Positions 47,014-59,329 of a stretch of DNA of 64,000 nucleotides are shown here, piece after piece; position 1 is the first letter of the stretch; the number at the start of each line of letters is the position of its first letter. The notes under the pieces are model-generated. The model was not told the DNA's origin. It saw nothing but the letters and a program-made list of their open reading frames with translations, and ran no database searches. Made by a program: the position numbers and the translations under genes. The DNA comes from Gammaproteobacteria bacterium (lineage in GTDB: Bacteria > Pseudomonadota > Gammaproteobacteria > Eutrophobiales > Eutrophobiaceae): assembly GCA_022826885.1 (NCBI GenBank), contig JAJDUB010000002.1:95902-159901 (forward strand), given 5' to 3'.

Positions 47014-47352
47014 ATGAACAAGAAAGACAATAGCTCCGTACAAGAAAGCAGTGGAAATATCTTCGCCGATATCGGCATGCAAGATCCTGATCAGGAACAA
47101 CTTAAAGCCGGATTGACGCTTCAGGTATATCGCCTTATCAGAAATCGTAAACTCACACAGACGGAAACCAGCGAAATTCTGGGTATCAAACAATCCCATG
47201 TGTCTGCGCTTATGCGCAACCGGTCCGGAAATTTTTCCACCAAGCGTTTGAAGGATTTTCTTGGCATCCTGGGACAGGGAGTTGAAATGAACGTCAGGCC
47301 GGCATCAAAACGCAAAAAACAGGGTGCAGCGCCTGCCCATGTCCAGGGGTGA
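47014..47352 (+). CDS. XRE-family HigA-like antitoxin (toxin truncated)
   Basis: The 112-residue protein has FADIGMQDPDQEQLKAGLTLQ followed by the helix-turn-helix LTQTETSEILGIKQSHVSALMRN and GNFSTKRLKDFLGILGQGVEM, the pattern of HigA-like antitoxins found with RelE/HigB toxins. Its toxin is reduced to the 24-codon remnant just upstream. Its last 13 codons belong to a 70-bp sequence repeated before boxB. Confidence 0.8.
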   Translation: MNKKDNSSVQESSGNIFADIGMQDPDQEQLKAGLTLQVYRLIRNRKLTQTETSEILGIKQSHVSALMRNRSGNFSTKRLKDFLGILGQGVEMNVRPASKRKKQGAAPAHVQG

Positions 47353-47383
47353 GGTCAGCGAGGTCGTTTGACAGTCAAGCAGC
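47314..47383 (+). repeat. 70-bp direct repeat, copy 1
   Basis: Matches 48699-48768 at 67 of 70 positions by eye. It covers the 3' end of the HigA-like gene and the following sequence up to AGTCAAGCAGC. Confidence 0.9.
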
Positions 47384-47454: not shown

Positions 47455-48633
47455 TTAACCCGCACTTCTCACCAGTCTGCCCATAAAGCCGGGCAGGGAG
47501 ACGACGGTCGTGTCCGTTTTAATCGGAAATTCATCATCGCCGCCGTAAATGACAAACTTCCTGGTGGCATTAATATCTTTCGCTCCCTGGTGAAACCCCG
47601 GCCTGATTTGCGGGACCAGGCCATGCTTGATCTCTATCGCCCACAACTCCCTGCCTGACAGCTTGAGGACGAGGTCGATTTCAGCCCCCGCGGCGGTACG
47701 ATAATAATAAGATTCAACATGGTTCGGCACAACGGACAGGATATTATCAATCACAAAGCCCTCCCAGCTTTTTCCCAGGACGGGATTGGACAGCAGGTCA
47801 TCATAGTCCGAAATGCCCAGCAACCGGTGCAGGATACCGCTATCCCGGATATAGTACCGGGGCGATTTGACCAGGCGCTTTTTTACATTCCCGTACCAGG
47901 GATGCAGCCGCCGTACCAACAGGAGATCAACCAGGATGTCCAGGTAATGGCGTATCGTCTTGCCATCGACCTCCAGGTTGCCGCCCAGTTTCAGGAAATT
48001 CAGTGTTTCTCCCTGGAGATGGGCGAGCATGGTCCACAAACGTCTCAGGCGACTGGCCGGTACCCGGAATCCCATTTGTGGCACATCACGTTCCAGGTAG
48101 GTGCGGAGCAACATTTCGAGCCATTCCATGCTGTCGGTATCCGAAGACGCCAGGTAGCTGTTCGGGAACCCGCCGCGCAACCACAACTTGTGAAGGTCAC
48201 TCTGCCTGGTGTGCGGCGCTTCCAGGATATTGAAACCACCCAGTTCCATATAGCTGATACGCCCCGCCAGACTTTCCGAGGATTGGCGCAACAAATCCAT
48301 TGAGGCAGAACCGAGCAGCAGAAATTGCCCTCCCTGTTTGTTGCCCCGGCGATTTTTGTCGATAAGTCCGCGCAGTGTCATAAACAGGTCCGGCGCCCGT
48401 TGTATCTCATCGAGAATAACCAGTTTGTCGCTGTGCCGGCGCAGGAAGGACAGCGGGTCTTGCAGCTTGACCAGGTCATCCGGCGCTTCCAGGTCCAGGT
48501 AGATTGATTTACGGGCCTTGCCCAGGGCCAGGGCCAGTGTGGTTTTCCCGACCTGACGCGGGCCCAGCAATGCAACTGCCGGGAAGCGCCGTATGGTTTC
48601 TTTAAGTTTATTGGTGAGCCACCTCTTAATCAT
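47455..48633 (-). CDS. AAA+ ATPase with DUF4143 domain
   Basis: The protein has Walker A in LLGPRQVGKTTLALALG, Walker B in KLVILDEIQRAPDLF, sensor segment FLLLGSASMDLL, and a C-terminal DUF4143 region with a nuclease-like AEIDLVLKLSGRELWAIEIK. The start is set at ATG 48633 (MIKRWLTNKLK); the track start adds 12 upstream residues. The length is about 392. These proteins are common accessory genes, of unclear function, and often appear next to mobile or toxin-antitoxin genes. It lies exactly between the two copies of the 70-bp repeat. Confidence 0.85.
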   Translation of the reverse strand: MIKRWLTNKLKETIRRFPAVALLGPRQVGKTTLALALGKARKSIYLDLEAPDDLVKLQDPLSFLRRHSDKLVILDEIQRAPDLFMTLRGLIDKNRRGNKQGGQFLLLGSASMDLLRQSSESLAGRISYMELGGFNILEAPHTRQSDLHKLWLRGGFPNSYLASSDTDSMEWLEMLLRTYLERDVPQMGFRVPASRLRRLWTMLAHLQGETLNFLKLGGNLEVDGKTIRHYLDILVDLLLVRRLHPWYGNVKKRLVKSPRYYIRDSGILHRLLGISDYDDLLSNPVLGKSWEGFVIDNILSVVPNHVESYYYRTAAGAEIDLVLKLSGRELWAIEIKHGLVPQIRPGFHQGAKDINATRKFVIYGGDDEFPIKTDTTVVSLPGFMGRLVRSAG

Positions 48634-48698
48634 ACCTTGTATTTTAGGAGTCTGTCTCCGAAAAAACAAGGTAATATTCGGATTAACAGGTTCTCAAA

Positions 48699-48759
48699 AA
48701 AAAACAGGGTGAAGCGCCAGTCCATGTCCAGGGGTGAGGTCAGCGAGGTCGTTTGACAG

Positions 48760-48768
<9 letters not shown>
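48699..48768 (+). repeat. 70-bp direct repeat, copy 2
   Basis: Second copy of the sequence at 47314-47383. The boxB stop codon and its last two Ala codons lie within the right end of this copy. Its left end resembles the 3' end of the HigA-like gene without the rest of that gene. Confidence 0.9.
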
Positions 48769-50199
<1,431 letters not shown>

Positions 50200-50201
50200 C
50201 G

Positions 50202-51917
50202 TCATATCCTGTCTTTATCGTATTCGGGGCGCAGTCCCGTGCCGTAACGGCGCAGCGCGCCGGCGTCACTTACCGCGTTGGGTCGTTGAAATATCCAGTT
50301 CTGCCAGGCAGTCAGCCGGCCGAAGATCTTGGTTTCCAGCGTTTCCGGCCCGGCGAAGCGTAAGTTGGCCTCCATCCCGACCAGGGCATCGGGAGAGAAA
50401 CTGGCCCGTTCTTCCAGCAACATCCTGATCTCGTCCTCCCAGTCGATGTCATCCGGGGTAAAGGTGACCAGTCCCAATTCAGCGGCCAGGGCCGCGTCCA
50501 GTTCCCGGCCGATATGATCTCTCGCTCCTGCGACACTGCCAGGTTCACCGAGAAAACGCGTCTCAAGGCGCGTCAATCCGTTGGGCATCGGCAGCGGGCC
50601 GAAGTTGCTTTCGCTCAGCATGATGGTTGGCGCCGGCGTGTCATCATCTTCAAACTGGCCTTCGAGCATGTAGCTGCGGTCCACGGCGAACAGTAACTCG
50701 GCCAGCAGGCCGACGAAACAGCTTCCGGGTTCAACCAGGGCAAAACTGGTGCGAGACGTCAGGTCCAGCCGTTTCAGGGTGCGTTTCCAGTAGAGGACGA
50801 TCTCGCGTATCAGCCAGTTGTCCTTGTGACGCTGCAGGAATGCGTCATGTCCTTTGACGGTCCCGGCAGCGCCGGCGCTGGTGATGATGATGGTGCCGAT
50901 GTCCGGTTCGTTGAAACGCAGGTGCAGCAGGGCGTCATCCAGTTGCCGGACCAGGGCCAGTGGCCAGAAGCGGTCGCCCATGGTTATGACGTCTGCCATG
51001 CCGTTCGGCGCTGCACTGTCAGGCCCCCTGATTTGCAGGGTGACGTTGCGGTTTTCCCTGTCAATGACCAGGTCCAGCCAGTCGTACCCGATACCATCTG
51101 TCTTCATCGTCCTGGATAACGACGTCAACTGCACCCCCGTGGCTGAATCCGGGCGGTCAGACATCAGACTCATTTCCCGGGCACGTTCCGCCACGCGTTC
51201 ATCGAACCGGGAACCGGGCACGATCTCGTCAACCAGGCGCCAATCGACTGCACGCCGGCCTTTCACGCCTTCCTCTACGGTACAGAACACGTCTGCCAGA
51301 TCCCGGCGCACCTTTCTTTTGTCGACGATGCGGGTGAGCCCGCCGGTGCCGGGCAGCACGGCAAGCAGGGGGATTTCCGGCAACGACACCGCGGCATTGC
51401 CGTCGTCGATCAGGATCAGGTAATCCATGGCCAGCGCCAGTTCATAACCGCCGCCAGCCGCGGTCCCGTTCAGCGCGCACAGGTAGCGCTGGCCCGAAAA
51501 TTCCCCGGCGTCCTCAATGGCGTTCCGGGTCTCATTAGTGAACTTGCAGAAATTCACCTTGTGGCCGTGGGACGCTCCTGCCAGCATACGGATATTGGCC
51601 CCGGCGCAGAACATGGTGGGCTTGCTGGAACTGACCACCACGGTTTTCACTTCCGGATGTTCAAAACGCAATCGTTGAATTGCATCGTACAGTTCGATAT
51701 CGACCCCTATATCGTAGGAGTTGAGTTTCAGTTCGTAGCCGGGAAACACGGCGCCATCCTCACTCACGTCCATCTCCAGGCCGGCAATGGCGCCGGATGT
51801 CGACAGTTTCCAGTGACGGTAATTATCAGGGTGCGTCTGGAAGTCCAGCAGCCTTGCCGCGTGCGCGGCCACCGGCAGTTCGGTTACATTATTGCCAGTT
51901 TTTTCCGGGTTGAGCAT
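50202..51917 (-). CDS. boxC: Benzoyl-CoA-dihydrodiol lyase BoxC
   Basis: BoxC opens the ring of 2,3-epoxybenzoyl-CoA hydrolytically, releasing formate and 3,4-dehydroadipyl-CoA semialdehyde. The 571-residue protein has the crotonase-like fold in duplicate form: VVVSSSKPTMFCAGANIRML and CALNGTAAGGGYELALAMDY in the first half, a second enoyl-CoA-hydratase-like half after residue 300, and a length normal for BoxC. The start at 51917 is 2 nt after the AOR stop, and boxB follows immediately. Confidence 0.93.
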   Translation of the reverse strand: MLNPEKTGNNVTELPVAAHAARLLDFQTHPDNYRHWKLSTSGAIAGLEMDVSEDGAVFPGYELKLNSYDIGVDIELYDAIQRLRFEHPEVKTVVVSSSKPTMFCAGANIRMLAGASHGHKVNFCKFTNETRNAIEDAGEFSGQRYLCALNGTAAGGGYELALAMDYLILIDDGNAAVSLPEIPLLAVLPGTGGLTRIVDKRKVRRDLADVFCTVEEGVKGRRAVDWRLVDEIVPGSRFDERVAERAREMSLMSDRPDSATGVQLTSLSRTMKTDGIGYDWLDLVIDRENRNVTLQIRGPDSAAPNGMADVITMGDRFWPLALVRQLDDALLHLRFNEPDIGTIIITSAGAAGTVKGHDAFLQRHKDNWLIREIVLYWKRTLKRLDLTSRTSFALVEPGSCFVGLLAELLFAVDRSYMLEGQFEDDDTPAPTIMLSESNFGPLPMPNGLTRLETRFLGEPGSVAGARDHIGRELDAALAAELGLVTFTPDDIDWEDEIRMLLEERASFSPDALVGMEANLRFAGPETLETKIFGRLTAWQNWIFQRPNAVSDAGALRRYGTGLRPEYDKDRI

Positions 51918-51919
51918 GA

Positions 51920-53632
51920 TTACTGCGGGAGCCAGCTATCTACGAGTTGGTTGACTTCGTCTGCGTGGAAGCGGGCGACCCGGTTGCTGGGTTCCAGCGG
52001 TTCGTTGTAGAAGAAGCCGGGTAACTCATCGTCATTTTCCGTAAAGCCCGCCGCCCGGTTGAACTCTCTTTCCAGGCGCAGGGTGTCCCGGCCCAGTTCC
52101 CGGAAGAAGGACGGCTCCAGTTCGGAACCGACCGCGGCGTTGATCGCATCGGTGATCATTTCCAGTTGCGTATTGGTCACGGTGCGCCCGAACACGCAGA
52201 ATCCCAGGGAATCCGTCGCCGCGGTGAGTACCTGGGCGTCGTGGCTGGCGCCGGCGACCTCTTCCAGGGTCTTGTCCGCGGTTTCCATCTTGGGGACGTT
52301 GCCTGCCGTATGGTCGGCGCCCTGGGCTGTGACCATCATGGTGATCCCCGTGGCCTCGATTACCCGCGGGTCGTATGCGCTGATGGCCTGGCGCTTGATG
52401 ACCGGCACACGGTTGACCCGGTAATGATCGCCGACCGCAGCCGTGCCCCGCGCCCAGAGCCGGCCCTGTTCGGTTCCCGCGCGGATCTGCTCCAGGACGT
52501 CCGTGATAAAGCCGGCATCGCCGAATTCACCCAGACCGGCCTCCATCAGTACGCCGACCATGGCGCCGGCTTCGATGGTGTCGATGCCGAGGTCGTTGGC
52601 GATGGCGTTCAGCCTGGCCAGGTCATCGGGCTCCTTGATGCCGCAGTTGGTGCCCAGCAGTCCCAGGGTCTCGTACTCCACCGGCGAAACGATCTCCTTG
52701 CCGTCGGCATCGGCATAGACGTTGCTGCAACGGATCAGGCACCCGGGCATGCAGGCATGGTCCTGCTCGCCGCCGCGGGCGATATTCTGCTCGCGGATGA
52801 AGTCCCCGCCCATTTTCATTATTTCGGTATTGGTGTCCACCAGGCGCCCCGAAGAAAAATTGCGCACTGGCAGGCCGCCCACGTGGTTCGTATAATCCGA
52901 CATCATGGCCGTGCCGAAGCGCTTGTAGCTGTCGATCATCGGGTCCTTGCCCAGCTTGTCCGCGTAACTGCGCACCGCGCCGATGACTTTCTTGCGCTCA
53001 TGCAGTTGCGGCATCCGGTCCAGGTCGGCAACGACGGCCTTCACCTTCTTGCTGCCCATGACCGCGCCGACGCCACCCCGCGCCGCCAGCCTGGAAGGGC
53101 GCCGGTCGGTATCGCTGACGGCAATCCCGGCAAGCAGGCCCCAGTATTCGCCAACGGGGCCGCACAGGGCGAGGCTGACTTTTTTGCCGTATTTCTCATG
53201 GAGCCGCGCGGCCGTCTCGAAATTGCCCATGCCCATGAAACCTTTGGCTGAATCGAAACCGACGCTGCCGTCCTTCCTGAGATGGATGATCACCCATTCA
53301 TCGGCCGCGCCGTGCAGGGTAAACCCCGACAGGTGCAACTGACCCAGCGCCACGCCCAGTGTGCCGCCGGCGTTGGCTTCCTTGACGCCGCCCGTAAGCG
53401 GGCTTTTGCAGCCGATGCTGGTGCGGTTGGCGTTGGAGAAGTTGGTGCCGGCGAAGGGACCGGCTGAGAAAATCAGCGGATTGTCCGGTGACAGCGGGTC
53501 GACGCCTGCAATATTTTCTTCCACCAGGGTTTTGGCGATGAGATAGCGGCCTACGCGTACCAGCGCTTCCCCTTTTTGTTCGACGGCCTGTACCGTTCGG
53601 TTTTCCAGGTCGATGTGAAGATAATTACGCAT
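51920..53632 (-). CDS. Aldehyde:ferredoxin oxidoreductase (AOR) family protein
   Basis: The 570-residue protein begins MRNYLHIDLENRTVQ and has the bis-pterin-binding pattern GGVGAVMGSKKVKAV (residues 186-200). Fe-S cysteines are C294, C298, C302 and, in TDSLGFC, C479. The first three are spaced C-x3-C-x3-C rather than the usual C-x2-C-x3-C. AOR enzymes carry W or Mo with a [4Fe-4S] cluster and oxidise aldehydes to acids with ferredoxin; the family also includes the benzoyl-CoA reductase subunit BamB, but the length here is that of AORs. Operon context suggests action on an aldehyde intermediate of the box route. Confidence 0.87.
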   Translation of the reverse strand: MRNYLHIDLENRTVQAVEQKGEALVRVGRYLIAKTLVEENIAGVDPLSPDNPLIFSAGPFAGTNFSNANRTSIGCKSPLTGGVKEANAGGTLGVALGQLHLSGFTLHGAADEWVIIHLRKDGSVGFDSAKGFMGMGNFETAARLHEKYGKKVSLALCGPVGEYWGLLAGIAVSDTDRRPSRLAARGGVGAVMGSKKVKAVVADLDRMPQLHERKKVIGAVRSYADKLGKDPMIDSYKRFGTAMMSDYTNHVGGLPVRNFSSGRLVDTNTEIMKMGGDFIREQNIARGGEQDHACMPGCLIRCSNVYADADGKEIVSPVEYETLGLLGTNCGIKEPDDLARLNAIANDLGIDTIEAGAMVGVLMEAGLGEFGDAGFITDVLEQIRAGTEQGRLWARGTAAVGDHYRVNRVPVIKRQAISAYDPRVIEATGITMMVTAQGADHTAGNVPKMETADKTLEEVAGASHDAQVLTAATDSLGFCVFGRTVTNTQLEMITDAINAAVGSELEPSFFRELGRDTLRLEREFNRAAGFTENDDELPGFFYNEPLEPSNRVARFHADEVNQLVDSWLPQ

Positions 53633-53691: not shown

Positions 53692-55206
53692 TCATATACT
53701 CCTCCAGTCACAGGACTGTTCGAAGCCGTACGCCGCCCGGTAGATGGCCGGTTCGTCACAGTGTCCGCCTACCAGCATCATGCCGACGGGCAGCCCGTTC
53801 CTCATGCCGCAGGGCAGCGACATGGCAGGATGACCCGAAATGTCGAACTGGCAGGTGTTCAGCACAGTGTTGAATGCCAGGTAGATGATGTCTTGCATGG
53901 CGGGGTCGGAGGCGGAAGCCGGGTTCTTTTGCGCCTGCATCAGGGTGGTCGGCAACAATAACAGGTCGTATTCTTCCAGCACGTCATCGTAGGCCTTGAT
54001 CAGTCTCGGCAGGTGGTTTTTTGCTTTCGCATAATAACTGCCCCGGAACTTCTCCAGGTATTTGCCCAGCATCAGGACCAGGTGCAGGTTTACCGGGAAC
54101 CTGTCGAATTTGTCCTGCCAGCCGGACATGAACGATTCCAGCGCAGGTGAATTAATGGCGTTTGTATTCAAGGCAAGACCGTTATGGCGCATGGTCTGCC
54201 AGAGGCCGTCACTGATAATGCTGCTCCAGAGCGGGACACCATCGAGGTGCATGGGGATGGATACTTCCTCCACTTCAATGCCGATGCCGGCAAATTTACC
54301 TGCAGCATCAAGTACGCAGTTATCAACGTCCGGTTCAGACAGGGGGTGGCCGAAGCCTTCCCTGACTACGGCGATTTTCATTCCGCTGATGTCCTCATTG
54401 AGTGCCCGGGTATATTTATATTGCCGTAACTGGCGTTGCCGGCTGTCCAGTCCGTCATAGCCTGCCAGTACTTCCAGCATGAGGGCATTATCACGCACGT
54501 TTGACGTCATCGGGCCGACGTGGTCCAGCATGGCTTCCATACCCATGATGCCGGTATAGGGGAGCAGGCCATGGGTTGCCTTCATACCGTAAACTCCGCA
54601 GAAACTTGACGGTATTCTCACCGAGCCGGCCTGGTCGCAGCCCAGGGCCATATCCACGTCGCCGTTGGCAACCAGGGCGGCGCTGCCGGATGACGAACCG
54701 CCGGCAGAGTAATCGTGATGATGCGGGTTTCTGACAAGACCGGTATTGGCTGTGGCGCTGGCGCCGGAGACACAGAGAAATTCGCAGACTGCCTTCCCGG
54801 TGATCTCTGCGCCTGCGTCCAGCAGCCGCGTGACGACGGTCGCATCGAAATCCGGTATGAAACCTTCAAGGATCGACGCGCCGTTCGTCATGGGAACATT
54901 CGCGACGAAAATGTTGTCCTTTATTGCGACTGTCCTGCCCTTGAGGGAGCCCGAATCCCTGCCTTTCAGGTCGGTCCTGACGTACCAGGCGCCCAGGGCA
55001 TTTTCCTCCGGGGTGGGAGGACGGTAACTCCTGTCGGGATAGCGGATTTCAGGCAGGTTATCTTCCAGTTGATCCATGAATTGATAGGCGCCGCCGAACA
55101 AGACCATTTGTTCCAGCATGTTGTCCGTATGCGAGTCGTCCATGCTCAATCCCATGGAAGCGGCAAGGGTTTTCAACTCATCTCTGTCAGGCAGTTTGAA
55201 AGTCAT
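53692..55206 (-). CDS. Amidase (amidase signature family)
   Basis: The 504-residue protein has Lys in TVAIKDNIFVA, the GGSSSGSAALVANG motif, and nucleophile Ser in CDQAGSVRIPSSFCG. A roughly 80-residue N-terminal helical extension is typical of catabolic amidases that hydrolyse aryl or alkyl amides. It heads the AOR-boxC-boxB operon with a 59-nt gap, so release of an aromatic acid from its amide is plausible. It diverges from the 4-hydroxybenzoyl-CoA reductase operon across 75 nt. Confidence 0.88.
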   Translation of the reverse strand: MTFKLPDRDELKTLAASMGLSMDDSHTDNMLEQMVLFGGAYQFMDQLEDNLPEIRYPDRSYRPPTPEENALGAWYVRTDLKGRDSGSLKGRTVAIKDNIFVANVPMTNGASILEGFIPDFDATVVTRLLDAGAEITGKAVCEFLCVSGASATANTGLVRNPHHHDYSAGGSSSGSAALVANGDVDMALGCDQAGSVRIPSSFCGVYGMKATHGLLPYTGIMGMEAMLDHVGPMTSNVRDNALMLEVLAGYDGLDSRQRQLRQYKYTRALNEDISGMKIAVVREGFGHPLSEPDVDNCVLDAAGKFAGIGIEVEEVSIPMHLDGVPLWSSIISDGLWQTMRHNGLALNTNAINSPALESFMSGWQDKFDRFPVNLHLVLMLGKYLEKFRGSYYAKAKNHLPRLIKAYDDVLEEYDLLLLPTTLMQAQKNPASASDPAMQDIIYLAFNTVLNTCQFDISGHPAMSLPCGMRNGLPVGMMLVGGHCDEPAIYRAAYGFEQSCDWRSI

Positions 55207-55281
55207 CGGTTTGTCGGTTAAATTTCTGCACCGGGCTAATGTGATGTATGCTTACTATAACAAACATGTAGTTTGCGGGGA

Positions 55282-55833
55282 ATGAACAAAGTAACGACTC
55301 TCAAACGCAGTCAGCAGCAGAACGCCCATATCGGTTGCCAGGTAAACCGAGAGCCGGTGCAGGTCTCGGTGGCGCCGGGCAAGACGCTGCTTGAGATGCT
55401 GCGGGAAGACCTGCAACTGACCGGCACCAAGCACGGTTGCGAACTGGGCGAGTGCGGCGCCTGCGCGGTCCTGGTCGACGGCGAGCCCATACTGTCCTGC
55501 CTGTACCTGGCGCTGGAAGCGGAAGGCTGTTCCATCGACACCGTAGAGGGCATGGCCCTGGACGGGCGACTGCATCCGCTGCAGGAGGCATTCGCCGACC
55601 TTGGGGGCGCCCAGTGCGGTTATTGCACTCCGGCTATTTTACTGACCTGCAAGGCCTTGCTCGATAAGCAGCCCGACCCGGACCGGGATCAGATCCGGGA
55701 AGCCCTGTCCGGCAACCTGTGCCGCTGCACGGGCTACCAGCAGATCTTCGAGTCCGTGGAAGAAGCCATACTGCGTCTTGACCATTCGGAACAGGGGACG
55801 GATTTGAAATCCGTCCCCGGTAGCGGCGGATGA
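55282..55833 (+). CDS. hcrC: 4-hydroxybenzoyl-CoA reductase gamma subunit (2Fe-2S)
   Basis: The protein of about 183 residues has the plant-type cluster GCELGECGACAVLVDG with its fourth Cys in ILSCLYL, and the second cluster QCGYCTPAI...CRCTGY, as in all XDH-family small subunits. The C-terminus is extended by GTDLKSVPGSGG, encoded by a palindromic repeat. The start is ATG 55282; the track start nine bases earlier is TTG. Assignment to the 4-hydroxybenzoyl-CoA enzyme rests on the partner beta subunit. The stop overlaps the alpha start as ATGA. Confidence 0.85.
   Translation: MNKVTTLKRSQQQNAHIGCQVNREPVQVSVAPGKTLLEMLREDLQLTGTKHGCELGECGACAVLVDGEPILSCLYLALEAEGCSIDTVEGMALDGRLHPLQEAFADLGGAQCGYCTPAILLTCKALLDKQPDPDRDQIREALSGNLCRCTGYQQIFESVEEAILRLDHSEQGTDLKSVPGSGG
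55794..55818. repeat. GGGGACGGATT...AATCCGTCCCC palindrome inside hcrC
   Basis: Perfect 11-bp arms flank TGA in the 3' end of the gamma-subunit gene, encoding GTDLKSVP. It is related to the palindrome at 10701-10724 within lhr. Confidence 0.85.
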
Positions 55834-58313
55834 GTAAGGAAAACTCATACTCCGTAATCGGTAAACCGCGCCGGCGCGTGGATGGCGCCGACAAGGTGAC
55901 AGGGCAGACCTGTTTTGCCGACGACATCATGCTGCCGCGTATGCTGCATTGCAAGTTGCTGCGTTCCCATGTGCCCCATGCCCTTATCCGGTCGATCGAT
56001 ACCCGCAAAGCGGAACGCCATCCCGGCGTGAAACTGGTATTGACCGGCAGGGATTTTCCCAATGAATACGGTATCCTGCCGGTAAGCCAGGATGAACAGC
56101 CCCTGTGCCGGGAAAAAGTGCGTTTCGTCGGTGACCCCGTTGCCGCGGTCATTGCCCGGGACGAGTTCGTCGCGGAAGAGGCGCTGGAACTGATCAGGGT
56201 CGAGTACGAACCGCTGGATACCATCTCCGACCCGGTTGAGGCGCTGAAACAGGAGCCCGCGCGCCTGCACGACTACAGCGAAGAGGGGAACATCCATAAA
56301 CGCCTCAGCTACGAGTTCGGTGACGTGGAGGAGAGCCTGGCGAACAGCGCCCACGTGTTTGAGGATATCTTTTTCTTCGAAGGCAATACCCACCTGCCCC
56401 TGGAGCAGCATGCCGCAGTCGGCGTGCCGGAGGCTGAAGGCCGGGTAACCCTCTGGTCCAGCACCCAGTGCCCCCACTACGTGCACCGGGCTGTGGCCAA
56501 GGCCCTGGACCTGCCCATGGCCCATGTCCGCGTCATCGCCACGCCCAATGGCGGTGGTTTCGGCGGCAAGACCGACCCGTTCAACCACGAAATCGTCGTA
56601 GCCAGAGCCGCGCTGATGCTGGGCCGTCCCATCAAGATCTGCCTGAACCGCGAAGAGGTTTTTTATTGCCATCGCGGCCGCCACCCGGTGCTGATGAAAT
56701 TTCGCACCGGTGTGGACGTAAACGGCGCGCTGACCGCCATGCACCTGCAGACCCTGCTGGACGGCGGCGCCTACGGTTCCTACGGTGTCGCCAGCGCGTT
56801 CTATACGGCGGTGCTGCAGCCGGTCACCTACCACCTGCCACGCTATGCCTTCGATGCCTGCCGGGTGTTTACCAACAAGCCCCCCTGCGGGCCGAAGCGC
56901 GGCCACGGCACTGTCCAGCCCCGCTTCGGCCAGGAAGTGCAACTCGACAAGATCGCGGACAGGTTGAAAATTGACCCTGCCGAACTGCGTCTCAACATGG
57001 TCGAGAAGCCGGGGGCGCTGACGGCCAATTACCTGAAGATAGGCAGTATCGGCCTGGCCGAGTGCATCAACAGGGTGACCGAACGTTCCGGCTGGAAGGA
57101 CAAATACCGGAAACTGCCGTCGGGCAGGGGCGTGGGCCTGGCCTGTTCCAGTTACCTGACCGGCGCCGGCAACTCCATCTACTGGAACGCCATGCCCCAC
57201 TCCGGCGTACAACTGAAACTGGACCGCAGCGGCAGGGTTACCGTATTCTGCGGGGCCACGGAGATCGGCCAGGGTTCCGACGACGTGCTGGTGGCCACCG
57301 TCGCGGAGATCCTGGGCATAGATCCCCTGGATATCCGCTGTGTCACCGGCGACACCGACCTGACGCCGGTGGACCTGGGATCCTATTCATCCCGCGTTAC
57401 CCTGATGATGGGCAACGCCGCCATCCAGGCGGCAGAGCGGGCGCGGGATTTGATTGCGCAGGCGGCGGCGCAGAAATTCGGTGCGGACGCCGAAGTCATC
57501 GAATTTGCCGGGGGGCGGGTATTCAACACCGGCCGGCCCGAACAGGAGATGCCGTTTCAGGAGGCGGTTGTCTGCGCTGAGGAAATTTACGGCTCCCTGG
57601 GTACGACGGGTTCATACACGCCGGCGCCCCCGCCGGGCAAGTACAAGGGCGGAGGGGTAGGGCCGTCGCCGGCTTATTCCTATACTGCGGCGGTGGTGGA
57701 AGTGGAAATCGACACGGCGAGCGGCTGGATCACCGTCCCCAGGGTCTATATCGCCCATGACCTGGGTCGGACCATGAACCCGGTGCTCGCCCGCGGCCAG
57801 GTGGAAGGCAGCGTTTACATGGGACTGGGCGAGGCGCTGATGGAGGAGTCCGCGTTCCGCAGGTTGCCGGCGCGCCTGTCAGGCGCGCTGGTCCATCGCG
57901 AGCCTTCCATGCTGGAATACAAGAGTCCCACCTCCACGGACATGCCGGAAGTGATTACGGATCTCATTGAATACCCGGATGACAACGGCCCGTTCGGCGC
58001 CAAGGAAGCGGGGCAGGGGCCGCTGTTACCGGTTATTCCGGCGCTTGCCAACGCGGTTTACGACGCGGTGGGGGTGCGCATCGACGAGGTGCCCATCACC
58101 GCGGAGAAGATATTGCAGGCCCTGGACAGCAAGGCCCGGGGTGGGAGCGGCCGGGTGGGACCTGCAAAATTCCCGGAGCTGGAATGGCCGGAACCGTACC
58201 GGGTGCCGCCGCCCTGGGAGGGCGGAGACGGTAACGCCGTTAATAAACCGCAACGCAAACGGGCCGCCAAGATGCACGATATGGACAGGTTCAGGAAGGT
58301 CACCGCATCATGA
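55830..58313 (+). CDS. hcrA: 4-hydroxybenzoyl-CoA reductase alpha subunit (molybdopterin-binding)
   Basis: The catalytic subunit of XDH family enzymes carries Mo-MCD. The 827-residue protein starts IGKPRRRVDGADKVTGQTCFADDI and has ATPNGGGFGGKTDP, CGPKRGHGTVQPRFGQEVQL, ATEIGQGSDD and the catalytic Glu in FGAKEAGQGP. Compared with the roughly 770 residues of known 4-HBCR alpha subunits, about 55 extra C-terminal residues, Pro- and Lys-rich, follow the core. Gene order gamma-alpha-beta is the same as hbaBCD of Rhodopseudomonas palustris. Both ends overlap neighbours as ATGA. Confidence 0.88.
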   Translation: MSKENSYSVIGKPRRRVDGADKVTGQTCFADDIMLPRMLHCKLLRSHVPHALIRSIDTRKAERHPGVKLVLTGRDFPNEYGILPVSQDEQPLCREKVRFVGDPVAAVIARDEFVAEEALELIRVEYEPLDTISDPVEALKQEPARLHDYSEEGNIHKRLSYEFGDVEESLANSAHVFEDIFFFEGNTHLPLEQHAAVGVPEAEGRVTLWSSTQCPHYVHRAVAKALDLPMAHVRVIATPNGGGFGGKTDPFNHEIVVARAALMLGRPIKICLNREEVFYCHRGRHPVLMKFRTGVDVNGALTAMHLQTLLDGGAYGSYGVASAFYTAVLQPVTYHLPRYAFDACRVFTNKPPCGPKRGHGTVQPRFGQEVQLDKIADRLKIDPAELRLNMVEKPGALTANYLKIGSIGLAECINRVTERSGWKDKYRKLPSGRGVGLACSSYLTGAGNSIYWNAMPHSGVQLKLDRSGRVTVFCGATEIGQGSDDVLVATVAEILGIDPLDIRCVTGDTDLTPVDLGSYSSRVTLMMGNAAIQAAERARDLIAQAAAQKFGADAEVIEFAGGRVFNTGRPEQEMPFQEAVVCAEEIYGSLGTTGSYTPAPPPGKYKGGGVGPSPAYSYTAAVVEVEIDTASGWITVPRVYIAHDLGRTMNPVLARGQVEGSVYMGLGEALMEESAFRRLPARLSGALVHREPSMLEYKSPTSTDMPEVITDLIEYPDDNGPFGAKEAGQGPLLPVIPALANAVYDAVGVRIDEVPITAEKILQALDSKARGGSGRVGPAKFPELEWPEPYRVPPPWEGGDGNAVNKPQRKRAAKMHDMDRFRKVTAS

Positions 58314-59329
58314 TGCGCCTGCCCCGGTTTCACTACTACCGGCCGCGGGACATCCGTGAAGCGGCCCTGGTCCTGGCCGGTGAGGAGAATGCCATGGTCA
58401 TTGCCGGCGGCACCGACCTGCTGCCCAACATGAAGCGCCGCCAGCAGACGCCGCGTACCCTGGTGGCCCTGCGCCACCTGGATGAACTGAAGCGCGTAAC
58501 AAACGGCAGCGGCCTGGTTATCGGCGCCGGGGTCACCCTGACGGACCTGGTTCAGGACCGGGGAATCAAATCGGCATACCGGGGGTTGTGGCAGGCCGCG
58601 GCCCAGGTGGCGACACCGCACCTGCGCAACATGGGTACCCTGGGCGGCAACATCTGCCTGGATACCCGCTGCAATTATTACGACCAGAACCATGAATGGC
58701 GCAAGGCCATCGATTTCTGCATGAAAAAGGACGGCGCGATCTGCTGGGTGTCCACCGGCAGCAAGACATGCCTGGCAACCTCGTCTACCGATACCGCGCC
58801 GGCGCTGGTTTCCCTGGGCGCAGAAGTGGAACTCGAAACAGCGCACGGGCAGCGCACGATCCCCCTGCACGAGTTGTACAGGGACGACGGCATTCATTAC
58901 CTGACGCGCAGCAACGAAGAGATCCTCACCCGCATCATCCTGCCGGACGGCGCCGGGACGCGTAGTGTCTACTGGAAACTGCGGCGGCGCGGTTCGTTCG
59001 ATTTTCCCGTGCTCTCGGTTGCCGCGGCGATCAGGTTCGGCGCCGGCGGCGCGGTCGATGAGGCCCGGATCGTACTGGGCGCGGTCGCATCACAGCCCGT
59101 CCTGTGCGACTCCGCCAGTGAATTTCTAAATGACAGGTCCCTGACGGACGAAGTGATTGAAGAAGCCGCGGCGCTGTGCGCCAGGGCGGCAAAGCCGGTC
59201 AAGAATACGGATTTCTCTCCCCACTGGCGCAAACGCGCCGTCGCCCGGCTTGCCGCGTACGCGCTGCAGGAACTGCGCGGCGACGATATGCGCGCAACCA
59301 GGGAGAAGATCGCGCGCCAGGCGTTGTGA
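58310..59329 (+). CDS. hcrB: 4-hydroxybenzoyl-CoA reductase beta subunit (FAD, extra 4Fe-4S)
   Basis: The 339-residue FAD subunit has IAGGTDLLPNMKR and ATPHLRNMGTLGGNICLDTRC. An insert after residue 116 holds C121, C137, C145 and C154 with spacings x15, x7 and x8. These equal the spacings of the [4Fe-4S] ligands (Cys122, 138, 146, 155) in the Thauera aromatica enzyme, a feature described as special to 4-hydroxybenzoyl-CoA reductase. This is the strongest evidence for the substrate assignment. The enzyme removes the 4-hydroxyl of 4-hydroxybenzoyl-CoA, giving benzoyl-CoA, with low-potential electrons from ferredoxin. Confidence 0.92.
   Translation: MMRLPRFHYYRPRDIREAALVLAGEENAMVIAGGTDLLPNMKRRQQTPRTLVALRHLDELKRVTNGSGLVIGAGVTLTDLVQDRGIKSAYRGLWQAAAQVATPHLRNMGTLGGNICLDTRCNYYDQNHEWRKAIDFCMKKDGAICWVSTGSKTCLATSSTDTAPALVSLGAEVELETAHGQRTIPLHELYRDDGIHYLTRSNEEILTRIILPDGAGTRSVYWKLRRRGSFDFPVLSVAAAIRFGAGGAVDEARIVLGAVASQPVLCDSASEFLNDRSLTDEVIEEAAALCARAAKPVKNTDFSPHWRKRAVARLAAYALQELRGDDMRATREKIARQAL

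Follow-up and report, generated by a model that had tools for sequence, protein, structure and literature searches.

What does an aldehyde oxidoreductase (AOR) do among genes for the epoxidation of benzoyl-CoA (box genes)? A sequence-only reading had noted an AOR-family gene 2 nt from boxC and proposed that its product could replace BoxD. We followed up this proposal in the window (the whole 64,000-nucleotide stretch of DNA analysed here), in the genome to which it belongs and in genomes of other gammaproteobacteria. The window forms one end of a contig from a 3.43 Mb genome (94.6% complete). This genome is related to MAGs from marine bacteria (Granulosicoccaceae, Chromatiales and a Bugula neritina symbiont), and the bacterium is marine and probably animal-associated, with an animal host suggested by isolate names.

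The AOR gene and its locus

The open reading frame at 51920..53632 on the minus strand begins with ATG and encodes a protein of 570 amino acids, with matches to the Pfam domains AFOR_N (175.7 bits, E = 1.3e-51, cut-off 29.8) and AFOR_C (199.4 bits, E = 1.3e-58, cut-off 27). Its best solved relatives in a search of the PDB are the AORs 9g7j, 1aor and 9mqx (E ~1e-50). It belongs to a same-strand run, amidase-AOR-boxC-boxB, with gaps of 59, 2 and -4 nt. The AOR gene ends 2 nt from the start of boxC, and boxC and boxB overlap by 4 nt. Together with the matches to the boxC and boxB models, these results confirm the observation from which the proposal started. The features of the locus are as follows.

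48760..50205, minus strand: boxB, benzoyl-CoA 2,3-epoxidase (benzo_boxB TIGR03225, 853 bits, cut-off 499)
50202..51917, minus strand: boxC (benzo_boxC TIGR03222, 910 bits, cut-off 712)
51920..53632, minus strand: predicted tungstopterin aldehyde oxidoreductase of the AOR/WOR family, single large subunit, 570 aa (open reading frame, AFOR_N and AFOR_C, AOR relatives in the PDB)
52196..52198, minus strand: fourth cluster cysteine, C479 (PfAOR C494 in the alignment; invariant in orthologues)
52727..52753, minus strand: cluster motif C294-MPG-C298-LIR-C302, C-x3-C-x3-C (kept in orthologues; aligned to PfAOR C288/C291/C295, the first cysteine one column off)
53692..55206, minus strand: amidase, first gene of the run, 59 nt upstream of the AOR gene (PRK07235, 655 bits, cut-off 545; nearest solved relatives the amidase 3a1k/3a1i; adjoins the AOR gene in same-genus loci)
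55273..55833, plus strand: [2Fe-2S] (gamma-type) subunit of a 4-HBCR-like enzyme, divergent from the amidase gene (Fer2 and Fer2_2; adjoins the alpha and beta subunits)
55830..58313, plus strand: 4-HBCR-like molybdenum (alpha) subunit (TIGR03194, 769 bits, below the cut-off of 994.6; best PDB match 1rm6_A, E = 4e-169)
58310..59329, plus strand: 4-HBCR-like FAD/[4Fe-4S] (beta) subunit (TIGR03195, 278 bits, below the cut-off of 404.6; best PDB match 1rm6_B)

We infer that the four genes of the run are co-transcribed; a scan for promoters and terminators gave no decisive signal on this point. The enzyme predicted from the three divergent genes is closest to 4-HBCR, and the cysteines of the 4-HBCR [4Fe-4S] insertion are conserved in its beta subunit relative to 1rm6_B, yet its alpha and beta subunits score below the curated cut-offs and we therefore call it 4-HBCR-like. 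As in the canonical boxABCD operon of the Azoarcus type, boxB and boxC are adjacent and overlapping. Unlike that operon, the cluster has no boxD, the genome has no boxA, and an amidase gene and the AOR gene lie upstream of boxC. Directly downstream of boxB, a 70-nt direct repeat (window positions 47314-47383 and 48699-48768, 96% identical) brackets a DUF4143/AAA ATPase gene (47455-48669), the second copy overlapping the boxB stop codon, which would fit an insertion or duplication of that gene at this site.

The amidase-AOR-boxCB neighbourhood is conserved within the genus. The AOR gene precedes boxCB in the genome of the window (G000) and in G001, G002, G003 and G006, separated from boxC by inserted genes in two of them (G002 and G003). 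In G005 the AOR and box genes are on two contigs. The only congener without an AOR orthologue, G004 (95% complete), is also missing boxB. Outside the genus, AOR and boxB are unlinked in the loci that we read, and the orthologues occur in unrelated contexts with genes for glycolate oxidase, the homogentisate pathway, XdhC or tungstate transport. Three orthologues (L179, L180 and L027) are directly downstream of genes that by sequence appearance resemble those for glycolate oxidase (GlcDEF-like). Two others (L076 in G027 and L126 in G014) adjoin homogentisate dioxygenase- and fumarylacetoacetase-like genes. In the genome of the window, that place is held by a 36% identical paralogue instead of the orthologue.

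Enzyme type, active site and clade

The query and 29 orthologues, which are 59-86% identical to it over their full length, were aligned with PfAOR. The second-shell residues Thr243, Glu311, Glu313, Tyr427 and His448 (PfAOR numbering) are kept in 30/30 sequences including the query, and Tyr312 in 29/30. PfAOR Tyr452 is replaced by Asn in all 30 and Trp316 by Gly in 29. BamB and YdhV do not have the conserved second-shell residues (PMC12096430). Since these residues are present here, the pattern is that of aldehyde oxidisers and not that of BamB or YdhV. Class II benzoyl-CoA reductase BamB, which has a Cys ligand to W, belongs to the same WOR superfamily and acts in a benzoyl-CoA context. We rejected a BamB-like function on the second-shell residues, all of which are present in the alignment with PfAOR, and on BamB being the weakest of the solved relatives (E = 8e-13, N-terminal part only). 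A Foldseek search with a predicted structure of medium quality (pLDDT 64, pTM 0.71) placed PfAOR first (E = 1.5e-25, TM 0.77), and of the WORs that it matched, BamB came last.

The four cluster cysteines (C294, C298, C302 and C479) would bind one [4Fe-4S] cluster, with the spacing of the first pair one residue longer than in PfAOR. PfAOR cysteines 291, 295 and 494 are kept in the query and the 29 orthologues, and the first cluster cysteine sits one residue away from its PfAOR counterpart. The motif CMPGCxxxC occurs in 30/30 orthologues covering the region, and C-x-x-G-C-x-x-x-C in all five paralogues of 35-38% identity, whereas AorB-type proteins and solved AORs, PfAOR and AaAOR among them, have C-x2-C-x3-C. 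The longer spacing had been taken as a hint of a distinct subclade. A separate clade is indeed what we recovered, but C-x3-C-x3-C is the rule throughout it and not a Box-specific trait, since the motif is shared with the paralogues and thus marks a broad clade and not the box operon.

The references for the phylogeny (PfAOR, AaAOR, CaAOR, HvWOR83 and PfFOR) were few PDB sequences drawn from printed alignments, with partial sequences for PfAOR, PfFOR and HvWOR83, and long branches. In this tree, the orthologues and the C-x3-C-x3-C paralogues grouped together with full support (100/100), apart from PfAOR, AaAOR, CaAOR and HvWOR83, and the box-linked copies of the genus formed one group (92/100) inside the orthologues. 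On this tree, the C-x3-C-x3-C subclade is older and wider than the link to the box genes. HvWOR83 grouped with PfAOR and AaAOR, so that with these few references, and a partial HvWOR83, the query clade was not placed with clade 83 (BmWOR and HvWOR83). Only eight residues set the box-linked copies apart, with no second-shell residue among them; the alignment thus gives no sign of active-site specialisation.

WorS and WorN genes are absent beside the AOR gene, whose neighbours are the amidase gene and boxC. The lack of an adjacent small-subunit gene makes the predicted enzyme a class I WOR by the scheme of PMC13328260. With other class I enzymes (PfAOR, 1aor; BmWOR of Brevibacillus massiliensis) it shares both Pfam domains, the second-shell residues, the four cluster cysteines and the absence of an adjacent WorS-type subunit, while it is ~26% identical to PfAOR over the fold match and differs from it in the displaced cysteine and the Asn at Tyr452. 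TupA/TupB-like genes (tungstate transporter), which score below the equivalog cut-offs, adjoin the orthologue in L181 and lie at a greater distance from it in L176, and an XdhC-like gene is present at orthologue locus L029. These genes point, indirectly, to tungsten as the metal of the query enzyme. Its metal, electron acceptor, substrate and electron destination are all inferred.

Four further AOR paralogues were identified in the genome of the window (C80:19200-20819, C71:7492-9120, C29:40373-42061 and C79:12308-13957). The paralogue on C80 adjoins homogentisate-pathway-like genes. The one on C79 (locus L119) matches 8c0z with 993 bits and looks like part of a full Aromatoleum-type AorABC set, in contrast to the large-subunit-only setting of the query.

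BoxD, PaaZ and BoxA across genomes

The genome was searched with family models. No Aldedh domain was found on the contig of the window, and all 11 matches in the genome are on other contigs. Eight aldehyde dehydrogenases (ALDHs) were named with NCBIfam, and only one of them exceeds the BoxD cut-off. This is a 681-aa bifunctional PaaZ on contig C41, ~21 kb from paaA, which scores 635 bits against the BoxD model (PRK11903, cut-off 444) and 998 bits against the PaaZ model. The query AOR has no ALDH domain. A dedicated BoxD was therefore not found among the ALDHs of the genome, so the reported absence of BoxD holds for the cluster and for a dedicated enzyme, but not for a homologue above the BoxD cut-off. 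Across the tested genomes, full-length bifunctional PaaZ always occurs with paaA, including in congener G004, where both boxB and the AOR are absent. PaaZ thus tracks paaA and not boxB, and so belongs to phenylacetate degradation. It could serve the Box pathway as well, because BoxD is homologous to the dehydrogenase domain of PaaZ and both use NADP (PMC4498308). Box clusters that have lost BoxD have been described earlier (PMC10803450). Three genomes (G143, G264 and G364) have paaA but no PaaZ/BoxD-type ALDH at E = 1e-50, which means that these genomes must use a different dehydrogenase for the phenylacetate semialdehyde.

No match to BoxA above the cut-off was found genome-wide, nor in any tested genome of the same family. 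Every tested boxB-positive genome of this family (f1; for example G000, G017, G025 and G027) has boxB and boxC without BoxA, which raises the question of what reduces BoxB there. One of these, G025, has no orthologue of the query and carries a different AOR-family protein (L064:564-2282) with C-x2-C-x3-C, ~7 kb from boxB/boxC; the same genome has an incomplete PaaZ, located where a contig ends, that scores below the cut-off.

The AOR orthologue and boxB occur together far more often than expected by chance. In a sample of 369 gammaproteobacteria, the orthologue is present in 8 and boxB in 17, and 5 carry the two together (Fisher's exact test, p = 6e-6). Of 37 genomes of the same family, 10 have both, 2 only the AOR and 2 only boxB, while the other 23 have none of the two (p = 1e-5, or p = 0.02 when tested by genus). 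The association extends beyond the family, with boxB in 3/6 AOR genomes outside it (p = 0.001), although species counts are not phylogenetically independent and these tests ignore phylogeny in part. Metabolic breadth could drive the presence of both genes. Five of 18 tested AOR genomes have no boxB (G011, G014, G103, G308 and G403).

A stand-alone BoxD-type ALDH is present in 4/27 boxB genomes (G017, G050, G126 and G159), none of which has the AOR orthologue. This apparent exclusion (0/4 versus 13/23) is suggestive and not significant (p = 0.10). Neither BoxD nor PaaZ exceeds the cut-off in 11/27 boxB genomes. Four of these have the AOR (G021, G023, G145 and G265) and seven do not (G113, G139, G143, G264, G315, G364 and G410), which shows that loss of BoxD does not require the AOR.

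Proposed role and alternatives

We propose that a tungsten-type AOR of class I (large subunit only) from an uncharacterised C-x3-C-x3-C clade was recruited into the benzoyl-CoA epoxidation operon in this genus. The enzyme would oxidise the product of BoxC, 3,4-dehydroadipyl-CoA semialdehyde, to 3,4-dehydroadipyl-CoA at its tungstopterin site, in place of the NADP-dependent BoxD, and would hand two electrons to ferredoxin. It would take the same place in the pathway as BoxD or PaaZ with an unrelated fold and cofactor. The replacement is plausible but unproven, because a back-up dehydrogenase, PaaZ, is encoded elsewhere in the genome, and we put its chances at somewhat below even. In its favour are the tight gene run and its conservation in the genus, the joint absence in G004, the co-occurrence with boxB within and beyond the family, the four boxB genomes that have the AOR but no BoxD or PaaZ above the cut-off, the non-overlap of stand-alone BoxD and AOR, the tracking of paaA by PaaZ, the second-shell residues and the tungstate-transporter-like genes. 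A dedicated substitute for BoxD is argued against by orthologues in genomes without boxB and in unrelated contexts, the seven boxB genomes with neither enzyme, the PaaZ of the genome itself and the unspecialised active site. A CoA-thioester aldehyde is not known to be a substrate of any characterised aldehyde-oxidising WOR. The interpretation offered by the sequence-only reading is thus partly supported.

The strongest alternative is a general or aromatic-aldehyde oxidase encoded in the same operon. It would convert free aldehydes, such as benzaldehyde and 4-hydroxybenzaldehyde, to acids destined for the pathway via CoA ligation, yielding reduced ferredoxin, while PaaZ or another ALDH takes the Box semialdehyde. 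This is a serious, if tentative, possibility. It is favoured by the unrelated contexts elsewhere, with orthologues in genomes without boxB beside other catabolic genes (homogentisate, glycolate oxidation), and by an active site that is identical in box-linked and unlinked copies. Furthermore, BmWOR prefers aromatic aldehydes (PMC13328260) and has been proposed to supply aromatic acids and reduced ferredoxin to an aerobic aromatic pathway (PMC9424855), and feeding of aromatic acids is suggested by the presence of the upstream amidase and of the 4-HBCR-like enzyme. However, the operon contains no gene known to make a free aromatic aldehyde, and such an activity alone leaves unexplained why the orthologue follows boxB across families. 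Alternatively, PaaZ carries out the BoxD step and the AOR gene lies beside the box genes without a role in the pathway, for example as a housekeeping gene for aldehyde detoxification that happened to enter the operon. The score of PaaZ well over the BoxD cut-off and the homology and shared cofactor of the two dehydrogenases are consistent with this. In G017, which has boxB but no paaA, the sole BoxD-type protein over the cut-off is a 515-aa PaaZ-like ALDH without the hydratase domain, and the genes inserted between AOR and boxC in G002 and G003 show that tight linkage is dispensable. We consider this explanation unlikely in view of the conservation of amidase-AOR-boxCB in the genus, the joint absence in G004, the co-occurrence in genomes where the genes are unlinked and the tracking of paaA by PaaZ.

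If the AOR does replace BoxD, its reduced ferredoxin could supply electrons to the low-potential 4-HBCR-like enzyme and perhaps also to BoxB, whose usual reductase BoxA is missing. A self-fed loop, in which ferredoxin returns the two electrons from the semialdehyde to the 4-HBCR-like dehydroxylase or to BoxB, would let one tungsten enzyme stand in for both BoxD and BoxA; we regard this as very doubtful. The pairing of an AOR with an oxygenase had seemed odd on account of oxygen sensitivity. That objection was dropped because BmWOR, which comes from an obligate aerobe, is active in air with its ferredoxin, and the aromatic acids and reduced ferredoxin that it yields are said to be used in the aerobic degradation of aromatic compounds (PMC9424855).

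The enzyme family is known, and our search, which covered the open-access literature, found no description of its box-operon context and no publication that links an AOR with box genes. In a 2026 classification of WORs, physiological roles are defined in only 5 of 92 clades (PMC13328260). If the proposed role is correct, it would provide a substrate for an uncharacterised WOR clade, and an oxygen-dependent aromatic pathway would gain a tungsten, ferredoxin-linked step that yields low-potential electrons instead of NADPH.
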